From: Roseithermus sacchariphilus
Lineage (GTDB): Bacteria; Bacteroidota; Rhodothermia; Rhodothermales; MEBIC09517
Assembly: GCA_003285105.1 (NCBI GenBank)
Contig: CP030158.1
Coordinates: 434,001 to 498,000 of the forward strand
Length of the DNA: 64,000 nucleotides
Reading direction: 5' to 3'
The position numbers and the translations under genes were made by a program. The first letter of the stretch is position 1. Every line of letters starts with the position of its first letter. Of the stretch, positions 3,519 through 63,075 are shown in pieces. Under the pieces are notes generated by a model that saw only the letters and a program-made list of their open reading frames with translations, was not told where the DNA came from and ran no database searches.

Positions 3519-5183
3519 TCAGCCCAGGCCCTCGACGCCCGCCTCGGACGCCCCCAGCCTTCGCACGACGAGCGTGGCCGCGGCGATCAGCAGCATCAGC
3601 AGCACGCTGTAGGCCGCCGCACCGCCGAAGTCGTAGAGCCGCAGGTGAGCCAGGATCTCGACGCTGATGGGGCGGTTGCTGTAGATGTACAGCATGATCG
3701 ACGCCACGAACTCGCCCAGCGCCGCCACGAACGTCAGCAACGTGCCGGCCAGGATGCCCGGGGCGATGATGGGCAGCACCACCCGGCGCAGCGTCGTGCC
3801 AAAAGACGCGCCCAGATCCGCCGACGCCTCCGAGAGGCGGTCGTCGTACCGCTCCAGCGCCGCCGTCGTCGAGCGCACGACGAACGGGATGTGGCGGATG
3901 AAATAGGCCAGCGGCACCATCCAGAACGACCCGACGAGCACCTGCCCCAGGGTCAGCACCGTGGGCTCGTTGAAGGCGACGATCAGGTTCACGGCGATGA
4001 CGGTGCCGGGGATGGCGAAGGGCAGCACCGCCAGGAGCCGGACCAGCCCGCGCCCGGGCAGCCGCCCCTTGACGATGAACAGCGCCGCCGCCACCCCGAA
4101 GAGCACGTTGCCCAGCGTGGCCAGCGTGGCCATCTGCAGGCTGTTGAGGATCGGCTGGAGCACGTCCGGGTCGCGGAACAGGTCCAGGTAATTGGCCACG
4201 GTATAGCGGGCGGGCAGGATCTGGTACGTCCACGCCCCCTCCTGCGCAAAGGAGATGAGCAGGACCGTCGCGATCGGCAGGAGCAGGAACAGCAACAACC
4301 CGACGGCTCCGGCGAGGGCCAGGGCCCGGGCCCAGCCTCGCCGCACCGGCAGCGGCGGCGCCGCCGTCCCCTTGGCTGCCCCCACCGCCTGCCGCCGGCC
4401 CGACCACTCGATCAGCACCAGGAACGCCAGGCAGATCGCCGTCAGCACCACCGACACCGTGGCCGAGAGGTCCAGGTTGCCGTTCGTCTTGTAGTTGTAG
4501 ATCTGCAACGTCAGAAACGGCTCCGTCCCGGCAAACAGCAGCGGCGCCGTGAACGACGCCATCGACACCATGAACACGAGCAGCGCCGCGCTCACGAGCG
4601 CCGGACGCAGCAGCGGCAGCATCACCCGGCGAAAGGTCATCCACGGTGAAGCGCCGAGGTCCGCCGAGGCCTCCAGCAGGCTACCGTCGAACCCCCGCAG
4701 CGCCGCCGTGACGAACAGGTAGAAGTAGACGTAAAAACTGTAGACGTGTACGAGCCACACGGCCCAGAGGCCTTCGAAGGCGAAGGGCACCTCCTCTAGC
4801 CCCAGGAGCGCCTGCAGGCTGCGCGGCAGGATCCCGCTCTCGCCGTAGAGGAACAGGAAGGCCAGCACACCCACCAGCGGCGGCAACGCCAGCGGCAGCG
4901 CCGCCAGCGCCATCAGCGTCCGCCGCAGCGGAAACGCATAGCGGAAGAACAGATACGCCAGCGCCGTCCCCAGCCCCCCCGCGCCGAGCACCGTGTACAC
5001 CGAGATCATCACCGAATTCACCAGCGCCCGGACGTTGGCCGATTGCCACGACGAGAACACGGCCCGCAGCTGGTCCCCGTCCAGCCCGGCCCCCACCATG
5101 CGCAGACTCGGATACAGCACGTAGCCCAGCAGGACGATCAGAACGGGCAGCAGGAGCAGCCAGGTGCCACGGCGGGAGAGCAT
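3519..5183 (-). CDS. ABC transporter permease, two fused permease domains (ThiP/FbpB type)
   Basis: An inner-membrane permease of 554 residues made of two homologous halves, each with about six transmembrane helices and an EAA loop that docks on the ATPase. The loops are visible as EASADLGASPWMTFRR in the first half and EASADLGASFGTTLRR in the second. Fused double permeases of this kind import ferric iron, thiamine or related small ligands through a periplasmic binding protein. Neither a binding protein nor an ATPase is adjacent, so the partners must be elsewhere. Start at 5183 places the first hydrophobic helix directly after MLSRRGTW; the longer upstream reading would add an arginine-rich extension. 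The gene is transcribed divergently from the acyl-AMP ligase fusion at 5471. Substrate is undetermined. Confidence 0.88.
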   Translation of the reverse strand: MLSRRGTWLLLLPVLIVLLGYVLYPSLRMVGAGLDGDQLRAVFSSWQSANVRALVNSVMISVYTVLGAGGLGTALAYLFFRYAFPLRRTLMALAALPLALPPLVGVLAFLFLYGESGILPRSLQALLGLEEVPFAFEGLWAVWLVHVYSFYVYFYLFVTAALRGFDGSLLEASADLGASPWMTFRRVMLPLLRPALVSAALLVFMVSMASFTAPLLFAGTEPFLTLQIYNYKTNGNLDLSATVSVVLTAICLAFLVLIEWSGRRQAVGAAKGTAAPPLPVRRGWARALALAGAVGLLLFLLLPIATVLLISFAQEGAWTYQILPARYTVANYLDLFRDPDVLQPILNSLQMATLATLGNVLFGVAAALFIVKGRLPGRGLVRLLAVLPFAIPGTVIAVNLIVAFNEPTVLTLGQVLVGSFWMVPLAYFIRHIPFVVRSTTAALERYDDRLSEASADLGASFGTTLRRVVLPIIAPGILAGTLLTFVAALGEFVASIMLYIYSNRPISVEILAHLRLYDFGGAAAYSVLLMLLIAAATLVVRRLGASEAGVEGLG

Positions 5184-5289
5184 GAGACGGTCGGATGAGG
5201 GTTCGTGGGACGAGGCGCCCCGCCGGAACCGGGGGCGCCGGCGGAGAGCGAAAGGACGCACCGGCTCCCGACCGGGTCCAGCCCCCACC

Positions 5290-5345
5290 TTGAATTTCCG
5301 TAGGCATTCTTTGATTCTTGGGCTATTTTAAGTAGGATCTGCCCT
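5290..5345 (+). promoter_or_regulatory. A+T-rich island between divergent genes, candidate promoter
   Basis: The gap between the permease and the fusion gene contains the only clearly A+T-rich patch in this neighbourhood. On the plus strand TTGATT (5311-5316) and TAGGAT (5333-5338) are separated by 16 bases, resembling a sigma-70-type -35/-10 pair, which would give a leader of about 125 bases to the ATG at 5471. A Bacteroidota-type TTTG also begins at 5310. This is pattern matching only; the match is weak and the reverse direction could equally be served from here. Confidence 0.3.
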
Positions 5346-5470
5346 CGCATCCGGCGGATGCCCCCGGATCGCGCGAAGGCCCCCATCTCGGAACGAGTCT
5401 CTACGCGCCGGTACGGTTCACGAACGAGGGTTCACGAACAACGGTACACGGTAACCAGATCATTCTCTTT

Positions 5471-8400
5471 ATGAGCCCGTCTCGCACCGCTTCCTCTCCC
5501 CGTTTCGCCACCCTGATCGACCTGCTCCGGCACCGTGCCCACCACACCCCGGACCGCCTCGCCTACACGTTCCTCCCCGACGGGGAAACCGACGCCGGAG
5601 CCCCGGCCGTCTCGCTGACCTACGGGGAACTCGACCGGCAGGCCCGGGCCATCGCGGCGCGGCTGCAGGCGGTGAAGGCCGCGGGGGAGCGCGCGCTGCT
5701 GCTCTACCCTTCCGGGCTGGAATACATCGCGGCGTTCTTCGGATGCCTCTATGCCGGGGTGACGGCGGTGCCGGCCTACCCGCCCCGCAAAAACCGCTCG
5801 CTCGACCGCATCGACGGCATAGTGACCGATGCGAAGGCCACGCTCGTGCTGACAACCACGCCCATCCTGTCGATGATCGAACGGCACCTGGCCGAACACC
5901 CCGACCTGGGCGTGGCGCACGAGATCCCGACCGACACGCTCCCGCTCGACCATGCCGACGACTGGGTGCCGCCGGCCGTCGATGCCGACACCCTGGCCTT
6001 CCTGCAGTACACCTCCGGCTCGACGGGCTCGCCCAAGGGGGTCATGGTCAGCCACGGCAACCTGCTGCACAACGAAGCGGTCATGCAGCGGGCTTTCCAG
6101 ACCCACGAGGACTCGCGGGTGGCCAGCTGGTTGCCGCTCTACCACGACATGGGGCTCATCGGCATGGTGCTGCAGCCGCTCTACGCCGGCTTCCCCTGCG
6201 TCTTCACCGCCCCCGTCGCCTTCCTCCAGAAGCCGATCCGCTGGCTGCGGATGATCTCCGCCCACCGGGCGACGATCAGCGGCGGCCCCGACTTCGCCTA
6301 CGACCTCTGCGCCCGCAAGATCACCCCGGACCAGTGTGAAGGTCTGGATCTGAGTTCCTGGGAAGTGGCCTTCAACGGCTCCGAGCCCGTGCGCGCCGAG
6401 ACCATCGAGCGTTTCACCGAAGCCTTTGCGCCCTATGGCTTCCGCCGCGAGGCCTTCGTGCCGTGCTACGGCCTGGCCGAGGCCACGCTGTTCGTCACCG
6501 GAATGCCCAAGCACGAGCCGCCCCGCATCGACCTGGTCGACGCCGACGCCCTGACCCGGCACGAGGTGGTCCGCGGGCCGTCTGCGGAAACCCGGCCCCT
6601 GGTCAGCTCGGGCCGCCCCTGGGACGGCGTGGAGGTCCGCATCGTCAACCCCGACACGCGGGCGCTGTGCGCCCCCGGCGAGGTCGGCGAGATCTGGGTC
6701 TCGGGCCACAGCGTCGCCCGGGGCTACTGGCAACGGCCCGAGGAGACGGCCGAGACGTTCGCTGCCGTGCCGGCCGATGCCCACGGCACCCCCGCCCTGC
6801 GTACGGGCGACCTGGGCTTCCTCCAGGACGACCACCTGTACGTGACCGGCCGGCTCAAGGACCTCATCATCATCCGCGGCCGCAACCACTACCCGCAGGA
6901 CATCGAGGCCACGGTGGCCCGCGCCCACCCGGCGCTGCGCCCCGGCGCCGGGGCCGCCTTCGCCATCTCCGTCGACGGCGAAGAGCACCTGGCCATCGTG
7001 CAGGAGGTGCGGCGTAGCGCCCTGCGCGACCTCGACGTGGAGGCCGTCATTGGCGCCATCCGCCGGGCCGTCTCCGAGGAACACGAACTCTACGCCCACA
7101 CCGTCGTGCTCCTCAAAACCGGCAGCCTGCCCAAGACGACCAGCGGCAAGATCCAGCGCAGGGCCTGCCATGCAGCCCTGCTGGCCGGCACGCTGCACGA
7201 GGTCGGGCGCGACGCCCCGGCCGCCGAACCGACTGACAAACCGGCGCCGAACGGGGCGCTCGACCGCGCCGCGCTCCGGGTGCTGCCGCCCGACGAACGG
7301 CGGCCGCTCATCGCCTATCGCCTCCAGCAACTCGTCGCCCGCGCCCTCAAGCTCCCCCTCGCCCGCGTCGACCGGCAGCAGCCCCTGGGCGCCCTCGGCC
7401 TGGACTCGCTGGACGTCGTCGAACTCAAGCTCGCCATCGAAACCGACCTGGGCGTGTCGCTGGCCGTAGACGAGGAACTGAACGACCTCAGCATCGACCG
7501 GATCGCCCGGAAGCTCTCGGCCCAGTTCACCCCGGGGAGCGCCGGCGACGAACCGGCCGACGAAGCGCCGGCCGGACCCGTCGAGACGGACCTCTTCGCC
7601 AAGTGCGACACCGACGGCGGCTACTTCGGCACGTACCGGCTGCAGAAGGACACGTACTTCACGCAGCCCGTGCTGGAGGGACCCATCGGCCCCCACATGC
7701 GCTTCCAGGGGCGGGAGGTCATCACGTGGTCGATCAACAACTACCTCGGCATCGCGCAGGACCCGCACGTGCACGAGCGGGCGCGCCGCGCCATCGAGGA
7801 GCACGGGCCCTGGTCCCCCATGGGCTCGCGCCTGATGACGGGCAACACCGAGCGGCACATGGCCCTGGAACGCCGCCTGGCCCGCTACCTCCAGAAGGAA
7901 GCTTCCATCGTCTGGAACTATGGCTACATGGGGGTCATGGGCACCATCGCCTCGCTCGTCAACGGCAACGACACGGTCATCATCGACAGCCTCTCGCACG
8001 CCTGCATCGTCGACGGGGCGATGGTGGCCGCCGCCGGCAAGCCGTTCCGCGTCTTCCGCCACAACGACCTCGACAGCCTGGAGAGCCAGCTCCGCGCCGC
8101 CCACGAGAAACGACGCGGCGGCATCCTCGTCGTCACCGAAGGCGTCTTCGGCATGACCGGCGACCTGGCGCCGCTGCCCGAGATCTGTGACCTGGTCGAA
8201 CGCTACGGTGCCCGCCTGTTCGTCGACGACGCCCACGGCTTCGGCATCATGGGCCCGACGGGCGCCGGCACCGCCGAACACCTCGGCGTGCAGGACCGCC
8301 TCGACCTCTACTTCGGCACCTTCGCCAAGTCGTTCGCCGCCATCGGCGGCGTGACGGCCGGGGACGAGCGCGTGGTCGACTATATCCGCTACAATGCCCG

Positions 8401-8851
8401 CACGAACATCTTCGCCAAGAGCCTGCCGATGGTCTACATCGAAGCCGTCGACGCGGCGCTGGACCTGATCGAGCAGGGCGAGGCCCGGCGGGCACAGGTC
8501 TGGCACATCGCCCGGCGCCTGCAAACCGGCCTGGCCGAACTGGGCTTCGACATCGGCAGCACCGCCTCGCCGATCACGCCGGTCTACGTCCCGGCCGGCG
8601 ATGAAGCCACCACGCTCCGGGCCATCCGCATGCTGCGGGACGAACTCGGCATCTTCGCCTCGGCCGTCACCTACCCGGTCGTCCCCCGGGGCGTCATGCT
8701 CTTCCGCCTGACCTCCACCGCCGCACACACGGACGAGGACGTGGACCGCACCCTGGAGGCCTTCCGCATCCTCCGCGACCGGCTGAACCTGCGACACGTC
8801 ACCGGGGACGGCAGCGTGGGATCGGTCAACCTGACCGGCCGTGCCTCCTGA
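5471..8851 (+). CDS. fatty acyl-AMP ligase / acyl carrier / alpha-oxoamine synthase fusion
   Basis: A 1126-residue, three-part enzyme. Residues about 1-590 are a fatty acyl-AMP ligase: YTSGSTGSPKG (180-190) is the P-loop-like A3 motif, and GRLKDLIIIRGRNHYP (about 460-475) is the C-terminal hinge typical of fatty acyl-AMP ligases. Residues about 610-690 are an acyl carrier domain with GLDSLD; Ser646 is the predicted phosphopantetheine site. Residues about 720-1110 are a PLP-dependent alpha-oxoamine synthase (serine palmitoyltransferase/AONS family), with DDAHGFG (919-925) and Lys953 in GTFAKSF as the predicted Schiff-base lysine. The plausible chemistry is activation of a fatty acid, loading on the carrier, then decarboxylative condensation with an amino acid (serine or cysteate) to a 3-keto long-chain base. 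A fatty-acid-hydroxylase gene follows. The amino-acid substrate is inferred, not shown. Confidence 0.9.
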   Translation: MSPSRTASSPRFATLIDLLRHRAHHTPDRLAYTFLPDGETDAGAPAVSLTYGELDRQARAIAARLQAVKAAGERALLLYPSGLEYIAAFFGCLYAGVTAVPAYPPRKNRSLDRIDGIVTDAKATLVLTTTPILSMIERHLAEHPDLGVAHEIPTDTLPLDHADDWVPPAVDADTLAFLQYTSGSTGSPKGVMVSHGNLLHNEAVMQRAFQTHEDSRVASWLPLYHDMGLIGMVLQPLYAGFPCVFTAPVAFLQKPIRWLRMISAHRATISGGPDFAYDLCARKITPDQCEGLDLSSWEVAFNGSEPVRAETIERFTEAFAPYGFRREAFVPCYGLAEATLFVTGMPKHEPPRIDLVDADALTRHEVVRGPSAETRPLVSSGRPWDGVEVRIVNPDTRALCAPGEVGEIWVSGHSVARGYWQRPEETAETFAAVPADAHGTPALRTGDLGFLQDDHLYVTGRLKDLIIIRGRNHYPQDIEATVARAHPALRPGAGAAFAISVDGEEHLAIVQEVRRSALRDLDVEAVIGAIRRAVSEEHELYAHTVVLLKTGSLPKTTSGKIQRRACHAALLAGTLHEVGRDAPAAEPTDKPAPNGALDRAALRVLPPDERRPLIAYRLQQLVARALKLPLARVDRQQPLGALGLDSLDVVELKLAIETDLGVSLAVDEELNDLSIDRIARKLSAQFTPGSAGDEPADEAPAGPVETDLFAKCDTDGGYFGTYRLQKDTYFTQPVLEGPIGPHMRFQGREVITWSINNYLGIAQDPHVHERARRAIEEHGPWSPMGSRLMTGNTERHMALERRLARYLQKEASIVWNYGYMGVMGTIASLVNGNDTVIIDSLSHACIVDGAMVAAAGKPFRVFRHNDLDSLESQLRAAHEKRRGGILVVTEGVFGMTGDLAPLPEICDLVERYGARLFVDDAHGFGIMGPTGAGTAEHLGVQDRLDLYFGTFAKSFAAIGGVTAGDERVVDYIRYNARTNIFAKSLPMVYIEAVDAALDLIEQGEARRAQVWHIARRLQTGLAELGFDIGSTASPITPVYVPAGDEATTLRAIRMLRDELGIFASAVTYPVVPRGVMLFRLTSTAAHTDEDVDRTLEAFRILRDRLNLRHVTGDGSVGSVNLTGRAS

Positions 8852-9007
8852 CCTGCCCCCGCCTCGCAACCTCCCCCGGTCCGGCTGCGTTTTCCCTCTT
8901 GTCAAAGCATTCCGTCGATGCGATCATACAGGGAGCTCGCATCGACCGGTGACGCATCGACCCGGTACGGTATCGCACGGCATCCACCAACCCGTCCCCA
9001 TCGACCC

Positions 9008-9670
9008 ATGCACCGGATCCCCGAACCCAAGGACGACCAGACCGGCACCATCTTCAACCACCCCGCGCTTGAGGTCCTGACCAAGGCCCCGCCGCAGGTA
9101 CCGGTGATCACCTACCTCGCCGTCATCGTCGGGCTGGCCTACATCGGCTACCAGCGGCAGGTCGTGGACTCCTTCCTCGCCGCGGCGGCCCTCTTCGTCG
9201 CCGCCCTGTTCGCGTGGACGTTCTTCGAGTACGTGTTCCACCGGTACATCAACCACCTGGATCACTACTTCCCCGACTCGAAGCTGGCCTGCCGCATCGC
9301 CTACACGCTGCACGGCATCCATCACGAGTTTCCGCGGGACCGCGACCGGCTCATCATGCCGCCGGTGCCCGGCCTGCTGATCATCTCGATCCTGTTCGGC
9401 CTGTTCTGGCTGATCATGGGATCCTACGTCTTCGTCTTCCTGCCGGGCTTTCTGACGGGCTACCTGCTCTACGTGCTGGTGCATTACAGCACGCACAAGT
9501 TCAAGCCGCCGAAGCGGCTAAAATTCCTCTGGCGGCACCACGCGCTGCACCACTACAAGTACCCGCACCGCGCCTTCGGCGTCTCCACGACCCTCTGGGA
9601 CCACGTCTTCGGCACGATGCCCCCGAAGCAGCACCGCAACAGCGAACACCACGCCGGACAGGGCGCATGA
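9008..9670 (+). CDS. fatty acid hydroxylase superfamily membrane protein
   Basis: A 220-residue integral membrane di-iron enzyme of the fatty acid hydroxylase/sterol desaturase superfamily. The four histidine clusters expected for the metal site are present in order: HRYINH, HGIHH, HYSTH and HHALHH, interleaved with about four hydrophobic helices. The spacing resembles the sphingolipid fatty acid 2-hydroxylase (FA2H/Scs7) branch, but the cytochrome b5 domain of the eukaryotic enzymes is absent. Start at 9008 gives a short hydrophilic lead-in; an earlier in-frame ATG at 8918 would add 30 low-quality residues. It lies 156 bp after the acyl-AMP ligase/carrier/synthase fusion and is probably co-transcribed. 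A role in hydroxylating a sphingolipid-like product is inferred from position and family. Confidence 0.87.
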   Translation: MHRIPEPKDDQTGTIFNHPALEVLTKAPPQVPVITYLAVIVGLAYIGYQRQVVDSFLAAAALFVAALFAWTFFEYVFHRYINHLDHYFPDSKLACRIAYTLHGIHHEFPRDRDRLIMPPVPGLLIISILFGLFWLIMGSYVFVFLPGFLTGYLLYVLVHYSTHKFKPPKRLKFLWRHHALHHYKYPHRAFGVSTTLWDHVFGTMPPKQHRNSEHHAGQGA

Positions 9671-9714: not shown

Positions 9715-9757
9715 GCGGTCGGCCGTCCGTGACGAGGCGGCCGACCGCTCGTTTTTC
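9715..9757 (+). terminator. rho-independent terminator after the hydroxylase gene
   Basis: An 11-bp perfect inverted repeat (GCGGTCGGCCG at 9715-9725 and its complement at 9738-9748) with a 12-base loop is followed by TCGTTTTTC. This is the expected form of an intrinsic terminator on the plus strand, 44 bases after the hydroxylase stop codon. It separates the fusion/hydroxylase unit from the VOC gene at 9793. Confidence 0.8.
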
Positions 9758-9792: not shown

Positions 9793-10851
9793 ATGACCTA
9801 CCTCATCAGCGGCATCCAGCAGATCGGCATCGGCGTGCCGGACGTGGAAGCCGCCTGGGCCTTCTACCGGACGGCGTTCGGGATGGACGTCCCGGTCTTT
9901 CAGGACGCCGCCGAAGCGCCGCTCATGACGCCCTACACCGGCGGCACCGTCCACCGCCGGACGGCCACGCTGGCGCTGAACCTGCAGGGCGGCAGCGGCT
10001 TCGAGATCTGGCAGTTCACCAGCCGCACCCCGCAGGGCCCCGCCTTCGACGTGCAGCTGGGCGACCTCGGGCTCTTCGCGGCCCGCATCAAAACGCGCGA
10101 CGTGGCGCAGGCCCACCGGTTCTTCGAGAAGGCCCGCCCGGAAGCGCTCTCCCCCATCGCCCCGAACCCGGCCGGAACGCAGCACTTCTTCCTGACCGAC
10201 CCGCTCGGGCTGACGTTCGACGTCGTGCCGGGCGAGGCGTGGTTCGGCAACGGCCGCCACCCCACCGGCGGCCCCTGTGGGATGCTCATCGGCGTCTCGG
10301 ACGTCGACCGCGCCCGTACCCTTTACACCGACCTGCTCGGCTACGACGAGGTGGTGTACGACGAGACGGGCACGTTCGCGGACTTCGCCTCGCTGCCGGG
10401 CGGCCACGGCCGCTTCCGGCGGGTGCTGCTGGCCCACCGCGCGCCCCGACGCGGCCCCTTCGCCCGCCTCCTCGGCCCGAGCCGGCTGGAGCTGGTGCAG
10501 GCCCTCGACCGCACCCCGCGCACGATCTTCGACGGCCGCTTCTGGGGCGACCTCGGCTTCATCCACCTCTGCTTCGACGTGCAGGGCATGGACGCGCTGA
10601 AGCAGGCCTGCGAGGCCGCCGGCTTCCCCTTCACCGTCGACAGCGCCGACTCGTTCGACATGGGCGAGGCCGCGGGCCGGTTCAGCTACATCGAAGACCC
10701 GGACGGCACCCTCATCGAGTTCGTCGAAACCCACCGCATGCCCGTCCTCAAAAAGCTCGGCTGGTACCTCGACCTGCGCAAGCGCCCGCACGGCCGGCCG
10801 CTGCCGGACTGGATGCTGAAGGCGCTGGCCTTGAATCGGGTCAGGAGCTAG
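9793..10851 (+). CDS. VOC superfamily protein (4-hydroxyphenylpyruvate dioxygenase-like)
   Basis: A 352-residue cytoplasmic protein built from vicinal-oxygen-chelate (beta-alpha-beta-beta-beta) modules. The first module starts at IQQIGIGVPDVEAAWAFY (8-25). The second starts at GMLIGVSDVDRARTLYTDLL, and the C-terminal module has GFIHLCFDV and EDPDGTLIEFVETH, where the His and Glu could be metal ligands. In the first module the position usually held by a metal-binding histidine is glutamine, so a single metal site in the C-terminal part is more likely. Glyoxalases, extradiol dioxygenases and 4-hydroxyphenylpyruvate dioxygenase share this fold. A terminator upstream suggests its own promoter. 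The reaction cannot be assigned. Confidence 0.75.
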   Translation: MTYLISGIQQIGIGVPDVEAAWAFYRTAFGMDVPVFQDAAEAPLMTPYTGGTVHRRTATLALNLQGGSGFEIWQFTSRTPQGPAFDVQLGDLGLFAARIKTRDVAQAHRFFEKARPEALSPIAPNPAGTQHFFLTDPLGLTFDVVPGEAWFGNGRHPTGGPCGMLIGVSDVDRARTLYTDLLGYDEVVYDETGTFADFASLPGGHGRFRRVLLAHRAPRRGPFARLLGPSRLELVQALDRTPRTIFDGRFWGDLGFIHLCFDVQGMDALKQACEAAGFPFTVDSADSFDMGEAAGRFSYIEDPDGTLIEFVETHRMPVLKKLGWYLDLRKRPHGRPLPDWMLKALALNRVRS

Positions 10852-10926: not shown

Positions 10927-13098
10927 TCACGGCATGCGCCGGAGGCCCTCCCAGCGCACGACCCACGAGCCGTCCTGCGGGAAGCCGGGCGCATGCACGT
11001 CGGGGGCGCCTTCCCAGCCGGCGGCCATCATGGCAACGGCGGCGAGCAGACCGCCGTTGCCGGGCAGGTAGATCGTCAGGCCGGGCCGCTGGTAGTTGTG
11101 GCCGTTGGGCAGATAGGTGTTCTTCACCGTGTCGTAGAGCAACGCGTCGATGGCGATCTCGGGCTCGCCGACGCGGGCGGCGGTCATGGCCGTGAGCGGG
11201 TAATCCCAGCCCCAGGTCTCCTCCCACTGCCACGTCGCCATCACCGCGTGCAACGTACGGCGCATCATCTCCGGGTCGGCCCGGTCGCACGGCAGCATGC
11301 CACAGGCAGCCAGCAGCGTCGGATGGTCGCGCCGGTGATCGCGCTCGGAGAACGTCTGCGGGGCCGACTCGGCGTTGACGTAGAGCCCGTCGTGCGTGGG
11401 CAACGGGGCCAGATGGTCGAGGACGTGATCCCAGCGCGGGTCGCGCGGCAGCCCGAGCCGTTCGCGCCACCGCTGGGCCGTCGCCAGCCCATAGTGCCAG
11501 TAGGCCAGCTCGAAGGTCGGGTTCATGGTCGTGCGCGGCGGGTGGAGTTCCTGCGCCGGGATGAGCGGCGGGCCGAGGACGTAGCGCTGCGCCGCCGCCT
11601 CCCAGACCGCAAAGGAGGCCATGAAGTCGGCCGTCTCAAAGACCACGTCCCGGAAGCGATCCAGCGTCTCGCGGGTCGGGCGTTCGCGGTAGACGAGCTC
11701 GGCGAAGTAGATCGGGTGCGGCTGCTGCCAGACGAGCAGCGGCCCGATGCCGGACGGCCCCTCCCGCCCGTCCGGGCCGACCATTTTCGGCCAGCGGGCC
11801 CCTTCATAACCCTGCATCTGCGCCACCTGATGCGCCCGTGGCAGGATCGTGCGGTACCAGTCGAGGCTCCGGTCGAGCAGGCCGAGCCGGCCCCACAGCG
11901 CGAAGTGGACCCCGTGCCACCAGTGCATCTCCAGGTGGAATTTGCCATACCAGCTGTTGAACGTCAGCCCGGTTTCCTGCGGCGGCAGCGGCCCGGCGCA
12001 CTGGATCGCCGTGAGGTACTGCGACAGCACGATGCGGCGCTCCAGCTCGGGGGCTCGCGGGTCGGTGCTGCCCGAGAGGTCGACGGCCCCGCCGGTGGAC
12101 CAGAACTGCGCCCAGTGTGCCCGGCTGGCCTCCTGCGTCTCGGCCACGCCGGGTGAGACGGGCGGCAACGCCTCCGGTGCAAAGGCGACGACGGCCTCGG
12201 CCCGACGCAGATCGGCAAAGGAGATCACGTAGCGGTGTGGGCCGGCCGGCTCCAGCACGGCATCCCCGGGCATCAACACCCGGACGGCATAGACCTCGTC
12301 ATCCAGCCGCCGTCGCCAGTCCACCCGGCCGGGCTCCTGCACCTGCACCGTCGTCACATGCCGGTCGGGCTGATCCCAGACGGCGCCCTCGCCGTAGTGC
12401 GCGCCGCTGCCATAGCCGAAGGCGATGCGCAGCCGGATCTGCCCGGGATCCAGACCCGGCGCCTCGACGCGCACCGCCACCTGGTCATAGGCCGGATGCA
12501 CCCACGTCTGCACCCGCACGGGCCGCCCGCCGATGGCGAACCGGCTGGTGAGCGTCCCCGTCCACAGGTCGAGCGACTGCTCGATGGCGTCGAGATCGGC
12601 CAGCGACAGCGGCGTGCCGTCGGCGGCGTAGAGGTCGAAGCCGATCTGCCCGAGGTGGAGGCGATGGGGATTCTGCCGGAGCCACTGGCCGTCCGGCGTG
12701 CCCTGCCGCGTGGGATAGAGGACAGGGCGGCCGTACGTGTCGTAGGGCTCGTAGTTGTCGTAGAGCGTGTAGCCCTCGGGGTTCGGGAACCGGTGCCATC
12801 CCCAGTGCGCCTGCGTCGCCAGGGGGATCCGTCCCGGCGCCTCATCGGGAGCCGGACGATAGGCCTCGGGAAACGACTGGAGGCCCGTCACGTCTGCCGT
12901 GAAGGCGAACGTGCCGTTGCCCAGCGACAGCGGGCTCAGCGGATCGGCGGCACGCACGACGGGGTTGTGCCGGGTCACCAGCGCGTGCCGGTCGATGGGG
13001 GCGGTGAACGAAGCGGACGGCTGCGCGGCGGCCGGCGGCCGGGCCACCATGCCGGCGAGCATCCCGGCCCCCAGCAGGCCAAGCAGGAGACGATGCAT
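10927..13098 (-). CDS. exported six-hairpin glycosidase-like protein
   Basis: A 723-residue exported protein with an N-terminal signal peptide (hydrophobic segment about 4-20, then PPAAAQ). After it comes a beta-rich domain (about 30-320; LSLGNGTFAFTADVTG is typical of the N-terminal domain of GH65/GH95-like enzymes) and then an alpha-helical region with many Trp/Trp-His segments (EMHWWHGVHFALWGR, WEETWGWDY) suggesting an (alpha/alpha)6 barrel. The most likely role is hydrolysis of a plant- or algal-type oligosaccharide in the periplasm or outside the cell. I could not assign a CAZy family or a catalytic pair with confidence. Start at 13098 gives the signal peptide directly; upstream reading adds low-complexity sequence. 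There is no clear Shine-Dalgarno sequence. Confidence 0.7.
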   Translation of the reverse strand: MHRLLLGLLGAGMLAGMVARPPAAAQPSASFTAPIDRHALVTRHNPVVRAADPLSPLSLGNGTFAFTADVTGLQSFPEAYRPAPDEAPGRIPLATQAHWGWHRFPNPEGYTLYDNYEPYDTYGRPVLYPTRQGTPDGQWLRQNPHRLHLGQIGFDLYAADGTPLSLADLDAIEQSLDLWTGTLTSRFAIGGRPVRVQTWVHPAYDQVAVRVEAPGLDPGQIRLRIAFGYGSGAHYGEGAVWDQPDRHVTTVQVQEPGRVDWRRRLDDEVYAVRVLMPGDAVLEPAGPHRYVISFADLRRAEAVVAFAPEALPPVSPGVAETQEASRAHWAQFWSTGGAVDLSGSTDPRAPELERRIVLSQYLTAIQCAGPLPPQETGLTFNSWYGKFHLEMHWWHGVHFALWGRLGLLDRSLDWYRTILPRAHQVAQMQGYEGARWPKMVGPDGREGPSGIGPLLVWQQPHPIYFAELVYRERPTRETLDRFRDVVFETADFMASFAVWEAAAQRYVLGPPLIPAQELHPPRTTMNPTFELAYWHYGLATAQRWRERLGLPRDPRWDHVLDHLAPLPTHDGLYVNAESAPQTFSERDHRRDHPTLLAACGMLPCDRADPEMMRRTLHAVMATWQWEETWGWDYPLTAMTAARVGEPEIAIDALLYDTVKNTYLPNGHNYQRPGLTIYLPGNGGLLAAVAMMAAGWEGAPDVHAPGFPQDGSWVVRWEGLRRMP

Positions 13099-13238
13099 GG
13101 GCAGAGAAGAGGAGGATTGGAAGAATAAACGATGGCCGCACGTTACGACGCCCGGCGCGGACCCGCCACCGCCTCCCGCGAAACCCGCCTCCCGGCCCCA
13201 CGTTAGCGCGGACACCCCACGCCGTCACCCCGCGCCTC

Positions 13239-15069: not shown

Positions 15070-17301
15070 TCACCAGGCGATCTCTCCGCCGAACTGCTCG
15101 AAGAGGGCCCGCACGACGGGGTCTTCCTCGCGCAGCGTGCGCAGGACCTCGGACGGGTCCGTGGCCTCGGCCGTCTCTGCGCCGGCCTCCAACGTAGCCA
15201 TCGCCTGCACCTCGAACAGCAGCCGGTCGACGGGGTGCCCTCGCAGGGTCGCCGGGGCCATCTCGTTCAGGTGCTCCAGCAGATAGTCGTGCTGGTTGTC
15301 GAGCATACGCTGGTGAAAGGCATCGGGCACGGCGATGCGCAGGGTGCCGTCCTGGAGGTCACACGGCCGGGTCGCATCGAGCAACGCCCCCACGTGGATG
15401 CGGGCCGCCCGGACGCGGCGCACGTACGACGGCCAGAAGCGCAGGAGCGGGCTCAGCCCGGGGCTCAACCCGGAGCTCCCCCCGGGGCCCGGCTCGGCGA
15501 CGGCGACGGCCACGTCGGCCGAGGCCGCAGGGGCACCGGGCAGGCGGTCCTGCGGCGCCCCGCCATCCCCGGCCGAATCCGCACCGCTCTTCTTGCGCAG
15601 CGCGGGCGCGCCAAACAGCCCCAGATACCCCGGCGGCTGCTCCGAAGAGCCGGACGGTCCGGCGGGACGGGAGGCAGGGGCGGGCGGAGCACCCCGCCCC
15701 GACGGCGGCGGCTCCGGCGATGCGGAAGCCTCGGGCTCCGGCGATGCGGAAGCCTCGGGCTCCGGCGATGCGGAAGCCTCGGGCTCCGGCGATGCGGCGG
15801 CTTCGGGATCCGGCGATGCGGCAGCCTCGGGCTCCGGCGATGCGGCAGCCTCGGGCTCCGGCGATGCGGCAGCCTCGGGCTCCGGCGATGCGGCAGCCTC
15901 GGGCTCCGGCGATGCGGAAGCCTCGGGCTCCGGCGATGCGGCAGCCTCGGGCTCCGGCGCCGCCTTCGGCGCGGGGGCCGGCGACGGCGTGGCCGCGCGG
16001 TTCGACGGGGAGGACGGCGCTGATGTCGAAGGGGCAGAACGCTCGGGCGCGGCGGGCGGGCCGGCCTCGCGCTTCGATGGGGAAGATGCCACAGACGGCG
16101 TGCCCGGAGCCGCAAGGGCCGCCCCCTTGCCGTCGCGGACGAGCTGCTCCAGCCGGTCGATCTGCGCCAGCGCCCGGCGCAGATCGGCGGTGTGGGCGAG
16201 GGCGGCCATCTTCAACAGCGCCATCTCCAGACGCAACCGGGGCTGGGTGCTGCTCTTGAGCGCCTCCTCGGCCTCGGCCACGATCATCAACAGCCGCAGC
16301 AGATCGGGCTCGGGGAAGTCCTGGCTCACCCGGACGTAGCGCTGCCGCGTCGCCTCCGCCGCCTCGATCAGCGACGGGTCCGGCATGGTCCGGGCGACGA
16401 TCAGGTTGCGCAGGTGCTCGGCCAGCCCGGCCAGGAACTCCTGCAGGTCGTATCCCGCCGTCACGATGCGCTGGACCAGCGCCAGCATGCCGGCGCTGCT
16501 GCGCGCAGCCACGTGATCGGTCACCTCGAAGAACAGATCCGTGCCGACCACCCCGAGGGCCTGCGCCAGCTCGTCGTAGCGCAGGTGCGTGCCGCAGAGC
16601 GAGACGGCCTGGTCGAAGGCCGAGAGCGCATCGCGCAGGGCGCCGTCGCCCTTCCGGGCGATGAGCAGGAGCGAGGCCTCATCGGCCGTGATGCCCTCGG
16701 TGGCACAGATCGCCTGCAGCCGCGCCACAATGTCCGGCACGGGAATGCGCCGGAAGTCGAACCGCTGGCACCGCGACAGAATCGTCGGCAGCACCTTGTT
16801 GGGCTCGGTCGTGGCGAAGATGAACAGGACGTAGGGCGGGGGCTCCTCCAGTGTCTTCAGCAGCGCATTGAAGGCCGCGTTGGAGAGCATGTGGACCTCG
16901 TCCACGATGTAGACCTTCTTGCGGCTGCCCTGCGGCGGGACGCGCACGGTCTCGCGCAGGTCGCGGATGTCTTCGACCTTGTTGTTCGACGCCGCATCGA
17001 TCTCGATGATGTTGAGGCTGCGGCCTTCCTCGAAGGAGCGGCAGGAGTCGCACGCCCGGCAGGGCTCGGCGGCGTCGGCGCGCTCCTCCGGCGGGGTGGT
17101 GCAGTTGATGGCCTTGGCCAGGATGCGCGCCGCCGTCGTCTTGCCGACGCCCCGCGGGCCGCTGAACAGATACGCGTGCGCCAGCCGGTCCAGCCGGATG
17201 GCGTTTTTGAGCGTCTCGGTGACGTGCTCCTGGGCGACCAGCTCGTGGAACAGCCGGGGGCGGTATTTTCGGGCGGCGACGAGGTAGCGGGTTTCGGACA
17301 T
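15070..17301 (-). CDS. dnaX: DNA polymerase III subunit gamma/tau
   Basis: DnaX is the clamp-loader ATPase that also couples the polymerase core to the replication fork. The 743-residue product carries an AAA+ module at residues about 1-240: GPRGVGKTTAARI is the Walker A loop, three cysteines in CRACDSC plus an earlier Cys form the zinc module, and IVDEVHML is Walker B. A clamp-loader collar (about 240-370) follows, then a long Pro/Ala/Glu/Ser linker and a C-terminal tau-type domain (about 620-743). The linker contains ten copies of an 8-residue repeat (PEPEAAAS/PEPEASAS, one PDP) encoded by exact 24-bp DNA repeats. I saw no slippery A-rich frameshift site that would make a separate gamma. 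First gene of dnaX-ybaB-recR. Confidence 0.96.
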   Translation of the reverse strand: MSETRYLVAARKYRPRLFHELVAQEHVTETLKNAIRLDRLAHAYLFSGPRGVGKTTAARILAKAINCTTPPEERADAAEPCRACDSCRSFEEGRSLNIIEIDAASNNKVEDIRDLRETVRVPPQGSRKKVYIVDEVHMLSNAAFNALLKTLEEPPPYVLFIFATTEPNKVLPTILSRCQRFDFRRIPVPDIVARLQAICATEGITADEASLLLIARKGDGALRDALSAFDQAVSLCGTHLRYDELAQALGVVGTDLFFEVTDHVAARSSAGMLALVQRIVTAGYDLQEFLAGLAEHLRNLIVARTMPDPSLIEAAEATRQRYVRVSQDFPEPDLLRLLMIVAEAEEALKSSTQPRLRLEMALLKMAALAHTADLRRALAQIDRLEQLVRDGKGAALAAPGTPSVASSPSKREAGPPAAPERSAPSTSAPSSPSNRAATPSPAPAPKAAPEPEAAASPEPEASASPEPEAAASPEPEAAASPEPEAAASPEPEAAASPDPEAAASPEPEASASPEPEASASPEPEASASPEPPPSGRGAPPAPASRPAGPSGSSEQPPGYLGLFGAPALRKKSGADSAGDGGAPQDRLPGAPAASADVAVAVAEPGPGGSSGLSPGLSPLLRFWPSYVRRVRAARIHVGALLDATRPCDLQDGTLRIAVPDAFHQRMLDNQHDYLLEHLNEMAPATLRGHPVDRLLFEVQAMATLEAGAETAEATDPSEVLRTLREEDPVVRALFEQFGGEIAW
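15710..15949 (+). repeat. ten tandem 24-bp repeats inside dnaX
   Basis: Ten head-to-tail copies of a 24-bp unit beginning GGCTCCGGCGATGCGG (plus-strand orientation) with few substitutions, followed by a degenerate eleventh. In the dnaX frame each unit encodes one PEPEA(A/S)AS octapeptide, so copy-number changes keep the reading frame. The near identity of the copies suggests recent expansion by slippage or unequal exchange. Confidence 0.95.
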
Positions 17302-27541: not shown

Positions 27542-28125
27542 GCACAGGGGGAAGTCCCCGCAGGGGGAAGGGGGTCAAGCCCCCCGCAACATCGCCATCG
27601 CCCGGGGGCTCCCCCTCCGTCGCTGCGCGACACCTCCCCTTCGCAAGGGGAGGATTGGATGGTTGCTACAACGTACGATGCAAGACCCTTCCCCCTGGCC
27701 GCAGGCCACACAGGGGGAAGTCCCCGCAGGGGGAAGGGGGGCAAGCCCCCCGCAACATCGCCATCGCCCGGGGGCTACCCCTCCGTCGCTGCGCGACACC
27801 TCCCCTTCGCAAGGGGAGGATTGGATGGTTGCTACAACGTACGATGCAAGACCCTTCCCCCTGGCCGCAGGCCACACAGGGGGAAGTCCCCGCAGGGGGA
27901 AGGGGGGCAAGCCCCCCGCAACATCGCCATCGCCCGGGGGCTACCCCTCCGTCGCTGCGCGACACCTCCCCTTCGCAAGGGGAGGATTGGATGGTTGCTA
28001 CAACGTACGATGCAAGACCCTTCCCCCTGGCCGCAGGCCAAGCAGGGGGAAGTCCCCGCAGGGGGAAGGGGGGCAAGCCCCCCGCAACATCGCCATCGCC
28101 CGGGGGCTACCCCTCCGTCGCTGCG
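27541..28125. repeat. 166-bp direct repeat array 1 (three full units plus a partial)
   Basis: This fills most of the 778-bp gap between msrC and the DUF427 gene. A 166-bp unit is repeated three times in full and once in part: its palindrome CTCCCCTTCGCAAGGGGAG recurs with tcccc at 27635, 27801 and 27967, a constant spacing of 166. A second inverted pair (CCTTCCCCCTGG with CAGGGGGAAGG) lies in each unit. Within this array the segment after the palindrome (GATTGGATGGTTGCTACAAC) is the same in all copies but differs from array 2. All six frames stay open because the unit is stop-free and 166 is not a multiple of three; none of the resulting open frames is taken as a gene. Confidence 0.95.
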
Positions 28126-62670: not shown

Positions 62671-62684
62671 CGTGTGGCGCCAAG

Positions 62685-63075
62685 CCCTTCCCCCTGGCCG
62701 CAGACCACACAGGGGGAAGTCCCCGAAGGGGGAAGGGGGGCAACCCCGTCGCTGTGCCGCCATCGCCCGGGGGCTACCCCTCCGGCCCTGCGGGCCACCT
62801 CCCCTTCGCAAGGGGAGGATCTGGATGGCGCTATCGGATCGGGCCACGCCCTTCCCCCTGGCCGCAGACCACACAGGGGGAAGTCCCCGAAGGGGGAAGG
62901 GGGTCAACACCCGCTGTTGCGCCGCCATCATCCGGGGGGCTACCCCTCCGGCCCTGCGGGCCACCTCCCCTTCGCAAGGGGAGGATCTGGATGGCGCTAT
63001 CGGATCGGGCCACGCCCTTCCCCCTGGCCGCAGGCCATGCAGGGGGAAGTCCCCGAAGGGGGAAGGGGGTCAACA
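62685..63075. repeat. 166-bp direct repeat array 2, left part
   Basis: Units of the same 166-bp family as array 1: the palindrome CTCCCCTTCGCAAGGGGAG recurs with spacing 166 (tcccc at 62800 and 62966). The segment after the palindrome (GATCTGGATGGCGCTATCGG) is shared within this array but differs from array 1. The left part ends at about 63075, just after GGGGGTCAAC, where the DUF559 block begins. Confidence 0.94.

Follow-up and report, generated by a model that had tools for sequence, protein, structure and literature searches.

A one-chain ligase, carrier and cysteate fatty-acyltransferase-type synthase and its recurrent glyoxalase-fold gene partner in Roseithermus sacchariphilus

The fusion gene and its surroundings

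Roseithermus sacchariphilus is a member of the order Rhodothermales in the phylum Bacteroidota. The stretch of its genome considered here, termed the window (64,000 nucleotides; GenBank assembly GCA_003285105.1, contig CP030158.1, positions 434,001 to 498,000), carries a gene in which a fatty acyl-AMP ligase (FAAL), an acyl carrier and an alpha-oxoamine synthase of the cysteate fatty-acyltransferase (CFAT) type are encoded as a single polypeptide. It is followed by a fatty acid hydroxylase gene, a terminator-like hairpin and a gene for a double-VOC protein of the glyoxalase-I fold. In window coordinates, and all on the forward strand, the features are:

5471–8851 (+): fusion gene, FAAL, acyl carrier and CFAT-type alpha-oxoamine synthase, 1126 amino acids
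5507–7210 (+): FAAL domain, residues ~13–580, from solved relatives and FadD32-type models
7319–7507 (+): acyl carrier domain, residues 617–679, Pfam PP-binding, E 2e-9
7406–7408 (+): phosphopantetheine Ser646, invariant in seven fusions
7583–8794 (+): CFAT/SulA-type pyridoxal phosphate (PLP) synthase domain, residues ~705–1108
7811–7813 (+): Trp781, synthase domain
8327–8329 (+): PLP Lys953, synthase domain
8417–8419 (+): diagnostic Lys983, synthase domain
8918–9670 (+), start possibly 9008: FA2H/Scs7-type fatty acid hydroxylase, FA_hydroxylase, E 1e-19
9715–9754 (+): terminator-like hairpin of 13 pairs with a T tract (delimited in one scan as 9715–9748), between the hydroxylase and VOC genes
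9793–10851 (+): double-VOC (glyoxalase-I-fold) protein, 352 amino acids, just past the terminator

The open reading frame (ORF) of the fusion is free of internal stops, and alongside the PP-binding match Pfam recognizes AMP-binding (residues 20–420, E 2e-74), a DIP2-like AMP C-domain (464–575) and Aminotran_1_2 (749–1098, E 3e-48). The A3 motif is YTSGSTGSPKGV (residues 180–191), Ser646 lies in the carrier motif GLDSL and Lys953 in the synthase motif FAKSF. An initial annotation, made from the DNA letters alone, had described a ligase, a carrier and a PLP synthase in one chain; the reading frame, domains and motifs confirm this, all three of its landmarks (A3 motif, Ser646 and Lys953) were found where it had placed them, and the presence of three domains in one chain supports its view that activation, tethering and condensation are combined in one polypeptide. 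The top solved relative of the ligase domain is a FAAL-type domain borne on a polyketide synthase (PKS) (7r7e, 626 bits), others being 3kxw (502 bits) and FadD23/FadD32; the FAAL-type top matches span 626–290 bits, and FadD32-type FAAL models dominate the NCBIfam matches. By homology, the domain is predicted to be a FAAL, the CoA-rejecting kind of ligase. The fusion shares its ligase–carrier architecture and, by prediction, CoA-independent loading with the FAAL–acyl carrier protein (ACP) loading modules of lipopeptide and polyketide synthases (7r7e, 3kxw, FadD32), but whereas those are followed by a PKS or non-ribosomal peptide synthetase module, the ligase and carrier of the fusion are followed by a PLP oxoamine synthase. 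No oxoamine, sphingolipid or sulfonolipid case is named in a 2025 review of FAALs (PMC11837247). The architecture is unusual; each single domain is of an already known kind.

A single-frame fusion with the same three domains is encoded in six more genomes of the order (60–72% identity), and in an eighth genome it is broken across contig ends; the fusion is therefore not an artefact of assembly or reading frame. Within the order, 8 of 114 genomes carry it, and among 394 genomes spread over the Bacteroidota no full-length match was found in any other order. The stand-alone synthases nearest to its synthase domain come from four Spirochaetota genomes, in which no ligase stands in front of the synthase, no ligase match was found at E <= 1e-40, and a search for the fusion found none.

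Placement of the synthase domain

The synthase domain matches two solved cysteate fatty-acyltransferases at 400 bits (28eh) and 372 bits (7u7h), as against 244 bits for the best serine palmitoyltransferase (SPT); 7u7h is, by its sequence and residue numbering, the SulA of Alistipes finegoldii. SulA has been shown to condense acyl-ACP with cysteate, to use acyl-CoA poorly, and not to use serine or phosphoserine, and its Lys281, which is Ala in SPT, distinguishes cysteate from serine enzymes (Radka et al., PMC9304779). The built-in ACP of the fusion fits these preferences, given that SulA needs acyl-ACP (PMC9304779). The SulA/CFAT/CapB proteins (A. finegoldii alfi_1224; Flavobacterium johnsoniae Fjoh_2419; PDB 7u7h, 28eh), an acyl-ACP-dependent family, align with the whole synthase domain without large gaps and have the identical active-site N, H, K, K and R (SulA N53, H140, K251, K281 and R376 correspond to N756, H843, K953, K983 and R1079 of the fusion). 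Known CFATs are single-domain proteins of about 420 amino acids supplied with acyl-ACP by fatty acid synthesis; the fusion, in contrast, has a ligase and a carrier fused in front and a Trp at the position of SulA Ala78. Lys at the position of SulA 281 is invariant in seven fusions and in every CFAT-clade row examined, and Ala occupies it in all SPT references, in L099 and in L218, a second and separate SPT-like gene of the same genome. In a maximum-likelihood tree all CFATs, including the fusions, form a 100/100 clade with the SPTs outside it, and within it the fusions group with the four Spirochaetota proteins (support 96/91) as the sister of the subclade holding the proven enzymes. Judged by sequence, the fusion synthase belongs to the CFAT/SulA branch and is not an SPT. 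This placement, together with Lys983 and the separate SPT-like enzyme, makes a sulfonolipid base the likely product, and the lipid class can with good probability be narrowed to the sulfonolipid type.

That the fusion is instead an SPT for sphingolipids would be in keeping with the same overall chemistry and with the nearby hydroxylase, FA2H-type enzymes being ones that act on ceramides in eukaryotes. Caulobacter also provides a parallel, as a dedicated acyl-ACP synthetase, ACP and SPT (AasR, AcpR and SPT) divide the labour there in the same way, with the fatty acid activated onto a dedicated carrier and then condensed; as the initial annotation had said, these are separate genes (PMC9386255). 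The Caulobacter system differs, however, in having three genes, a serine enzyme and another type of synthetase, and is not a member of the same family. The lower SPT score (244 bits against 400 for CFAT), the Lys in place of Ala at the diagnostic site and the exclusion of SPTs by the tree rule against the sphingolipid reading; the genome has its distinct SPT-like L218 with Ala at that site, and serine is not used by SulA. An SPT function is accordingly very improbable, and where the initial annotation had offered ‘sphingolipid or sulfonolipid’, the sulfonolipid branch is retained and the sphingolipid branch is dropped.

The VOC and hydroxylase genes as partners

The VOC gene at 9793–10851 was overlooked by the initial annotation. 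In all seven related genomes the gene after the fusion encodes a double-VOC protein of ~352–361 residues, on the same strand and within ~230 bases; where the fusion is split, the VOC gene follows the 3' fragment. The source genome has the hydroxylase between the two. Amongst the 394 Bacteroidota genomes the VOC family occurs in 48, all of which (48/48) are CFAT-positive, a label given to the 138 of 394 genomes that match a CFAT-type synthase at E <= 1e-100. At the family level it is present in 10 of 14 CFAT-positive families and in 0 of 41 others (3e-8), which is the fairer figure because genomes are related. The gene that adjoins the VOC gene on its other side (window 10927–13215, reverse strand) encodes a protein of 762 amino acids that neither Pfam nor NCBIfam models recognize at E <= 0.001.

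In named genomes more than 500 wider VOC relatives were found, and neighbourhoods were taken from 80 that were kept, mostly from Bacteroidota with several from Spirochaetota, together with fetched regions. The VOC gene adjoins, or lies within ~2.4 kb of, a Lys-type CFAT gene in G064, G158, L138, L145, L167, L184, L198 and L213, and such pairs occur in same-strand, convergent and divergent orientations. Its commonest neighbour is one family of short-chain reductases (SDR), found on the same strand and within 220 bp at 29 of 94 loci; for 35 of 36 VOC-linked reductases the best match in the source genome is L115. The VOC gene also adjoins an Asn-type oxoamine synthase gene in L155, L169, L190, L197 and L198. 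In the first four of these the synthases form a distinct group with Asn at the position of SulA Lys281, and their genes and the VOC gene are transcribed divergently, about 120–180 bp apart. In L198, a Spirochaetales contig, the VOC gene is flanked by two oxoamine synthase genes, one of the Asn type and one of the Lys type (4751–8540), an arrangement which suggests that the VOC protein serves more than one synthase product.

The initial annotation had identified the gene after the fusion as a hydroxylase of the FA2H branch, and this is borne out by its FA_hydroxylase match and by its only solved relative, yeast Scs7 (E 7e-27), to which it aligns His cluster for His cluster. It has the fold family and His clusters of the Scs7/FA2H fatty acid 2-hydroxylases, but is without their cytochrome b5 domain. 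The alignments to its two best relatives begin only at residues 25 and 28, leaving the first ~25 residues unmatched, so translation may start at Met31 (9008). The gene adjoins the fusion in the source genome only and is next to it in none of the seven related genomes, which rules it out as an obligate partner and does not uphold its earlier description as the defining one. Of the 114 genomes in the order only four encode it, and these four, from just two lineages, all bear the fusion (chance 1e-5, if genomes are counted as independent); being restricted to fusion bearers, the enzyme may still modify the same lipid.

It is scarcely probable that the unit consists of the fusion and hydroxylase only, with the VOC gene as an unrelated neighbour. 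The terminator between the hydroxylase and VOC genes and the co-occurrence of the hydroxylase with the fusion (4/4 genomes in the order) would favour such a unit, but in the relatives it is the VOC gene and not the hydroxylase that follows the fusion, and in other families, and in another phylum too, the VOC gene is again found next to stand-alone CFATs, in several orientations. The hairpin that the initial annotation had taken to close the unit at 9715 is present, but with the VOC gene beyond it, its reading as the unit's end is not supported. The picture must be redrawn, with the fusion and the VOC gene as the conserved core and the hydroxylase as an addition in the source lineage.

No characterized relative of the VOC protein was found by sequence (best E 0.05), and in the literature searched VOC/glyoxalase proteins are not linked to sulfonolipids. 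Across 94 sequences four residues are all but invariant (Q10 in 93/94, E71 in 94/94, H258 in 93/94 and E309 in 94/94), the sole exceptions being one Gln-to-His change at 10 and one His-to-Gln change at 258, both to possible metal ligands. The metal ligands of glyoxalase I come in the order Gln, Glu, His, Glu, and the VOC set, to which only the first and the fourth of the four modules contribute, matches this order. An AlphaFold model (pLDDT 89.8, pTM 0.91) has as its best folds two-domain glyoxalases including maize GLX1 (target-normalized TM 0.61–0.66). The two-domain glyoxalase I of Zea mays thus has the predicted fold and the Q/E/H/E set in common with the VOC partner, but identity to it and to glyoxalase-family proteins is 12–17% and the VOC context is lipid synthesis. 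A dioxygenase of the HPPD or extradiol type was rejected, with a poor fold match (TM about 0.24–0.31 to HPPD-type enzymes) and ligands that are Q/E/H/E and not H/H/E. The neighbours of the VOC gene share an alpha-amino-ketone, which the synthase makes and the reductase consumes, and we infer that the VOC protein acts on this product of CFAT; as a proposal, it would catalyse a metal-assisted enolization, as an epimerase or isomerase.

A proposed sulfonolipid pathway and its significance

The fusion probably carries out the first step of sulfonolipid (capnine-type) synthesis in one chain. We infer the following substrates, products and VOC reaction. The ligase domain would adenylate a free fatty acid and load it onto the phosphopantetheine group of the chain's own carrier domain, and the C-terminal PLP domain would then condense the acyl group in cis with cysteate, with loss of CO2, to give a 3-ketocapnine-type base. 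The VOC enzyme would probably enolize the C2–C3 unit by epimerase- or isomerase-type chemistry, the short-chain reductase L115 would turn the alpha-amino-ketone into a 3-hydroxy base, and the FA2H-type hydroxylase, as lineage-specific tailoring, would probably add 2-hydroxyls to the lipid. A broader reading is held more tentatively, at somewhat below even chances: that the VOC family is an unrecognized sulfonolipid enzyme acting between CFAT and the ketoreductase in Bacteroidota and Spirochaetota, for example by fixing the configuration at C2 or by a rearrangement of the C2–C3 unit, with the fusion as a self-contained, assembly-line form of the first step. The initial annotation had proposed a minimal pathway and advised a search for a ketoreductase and an N-acyltransferase elsewhere in the genome. 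A reductase candidate, orthologous to the VOC-linked SDR, was found about 1.2 Mb away in L115 (listed as L115/L217; C1:1668665–1669444), whereas the search turned up no N-acyltransferase, so that a minimal pathway is not demonstrated.

Several observations weigh against the sulfonolipid assignment. Every biochemically proven CFAT sits in the sister clade and none in that of the fusions, and the position of SulA Ala78 (beside Lys281') is Trp in every fusion (Trp781). No cysteate synthase in the source genome passes the curated CapA threshold of 600 bits; the best match reaches 437 bits and scores higher as a cystathionine beta-synthase. The reductase gene is unlinked, about 1.2 Mb away, and the terminator described above separates the hydroxylase and VOC genes. 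The first three of these points would also agree with a synthase that uses another amino acid, neither serine nor cysteate, to make another lipid or a secondary metabolite, with Trp781 as the mark of a changed pocket. The Ala78 position is Phe in three of the four Spirochaetota relatives nearest to the fusions, and within the family, of which a small residue there is no established hallmark, it varies (A, S, G or F in CFAT-clade homologues); with Trp or Phe there the pocket may differ, and cysteate is accordingly named as the presumed substrate. Against another amino acid stand the invariance throughout the fusion of Lys983, the proposed cysteate/serine discriminator, the VOC and reductase partners common to ordinary CFATs, and the lack of recurrent secondary-metabolite genes next to it in the compared loci; this alternative is considered unlikely, and the sulfonolipid assignment is preferred. 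As to a cysteate synthase, L105, a PALP gene near the genome's own reductase, was rejected as its sequence reads as TrpB-like. In families f28 and f26 several genomes have curated CapA next to CFAT, and the VOC family is found in 2 of 49 genomes with CapA above about 500 bits as against 46 of 89 others. Replacement of CapA by VOC was likewise rejected, since both occur together in G218 and G234 and the pattern, a hint only, follows families.

Elsewhere in the window, tandem arrays of a GC-rich palindromic 166-bp unit with flanking runs of GGCTGAC-type heptamers occur at 27543–28125 and 62679–63075; the unit has 78 matches genome-wide, many of them in small arrays. A 24-bp unit repeated 10.4 times (15710–15959) encodes a Pro/Glu/Ala/Ser linker inside an ORF (15070–17301, reverse strand) that reads as the gamma/tau subunit of DNA polymerase III. 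A scan of the window with Rfam gave no match.

Sulfonolipids influence gliding motility, the outer membrane and signals sent to eukaryotes, and in the literature searched the only enzymes identified for them are cysteate synthase, CFAT and a reductase. The sulfonolipid RIF-1, a signal in choanoflagellates, has a 5-hydroxy base and a fatty acid hydroxylated at position 2 (PMC3463246); the FA2H-type hydroxylase may be what introduces a 2-hydroxyl of the sort by which RIF-1 is distinguished. A natural single-chain committed step would give a compact tool for turning free fatty acid, ATP and cysteate into 3-ketocapnine. The newest part of the finding is the VOC family as a likely unrecognized step, the recurrent association of CFAT, VOC and reductase pointing to a step that has been missing from the pathway.

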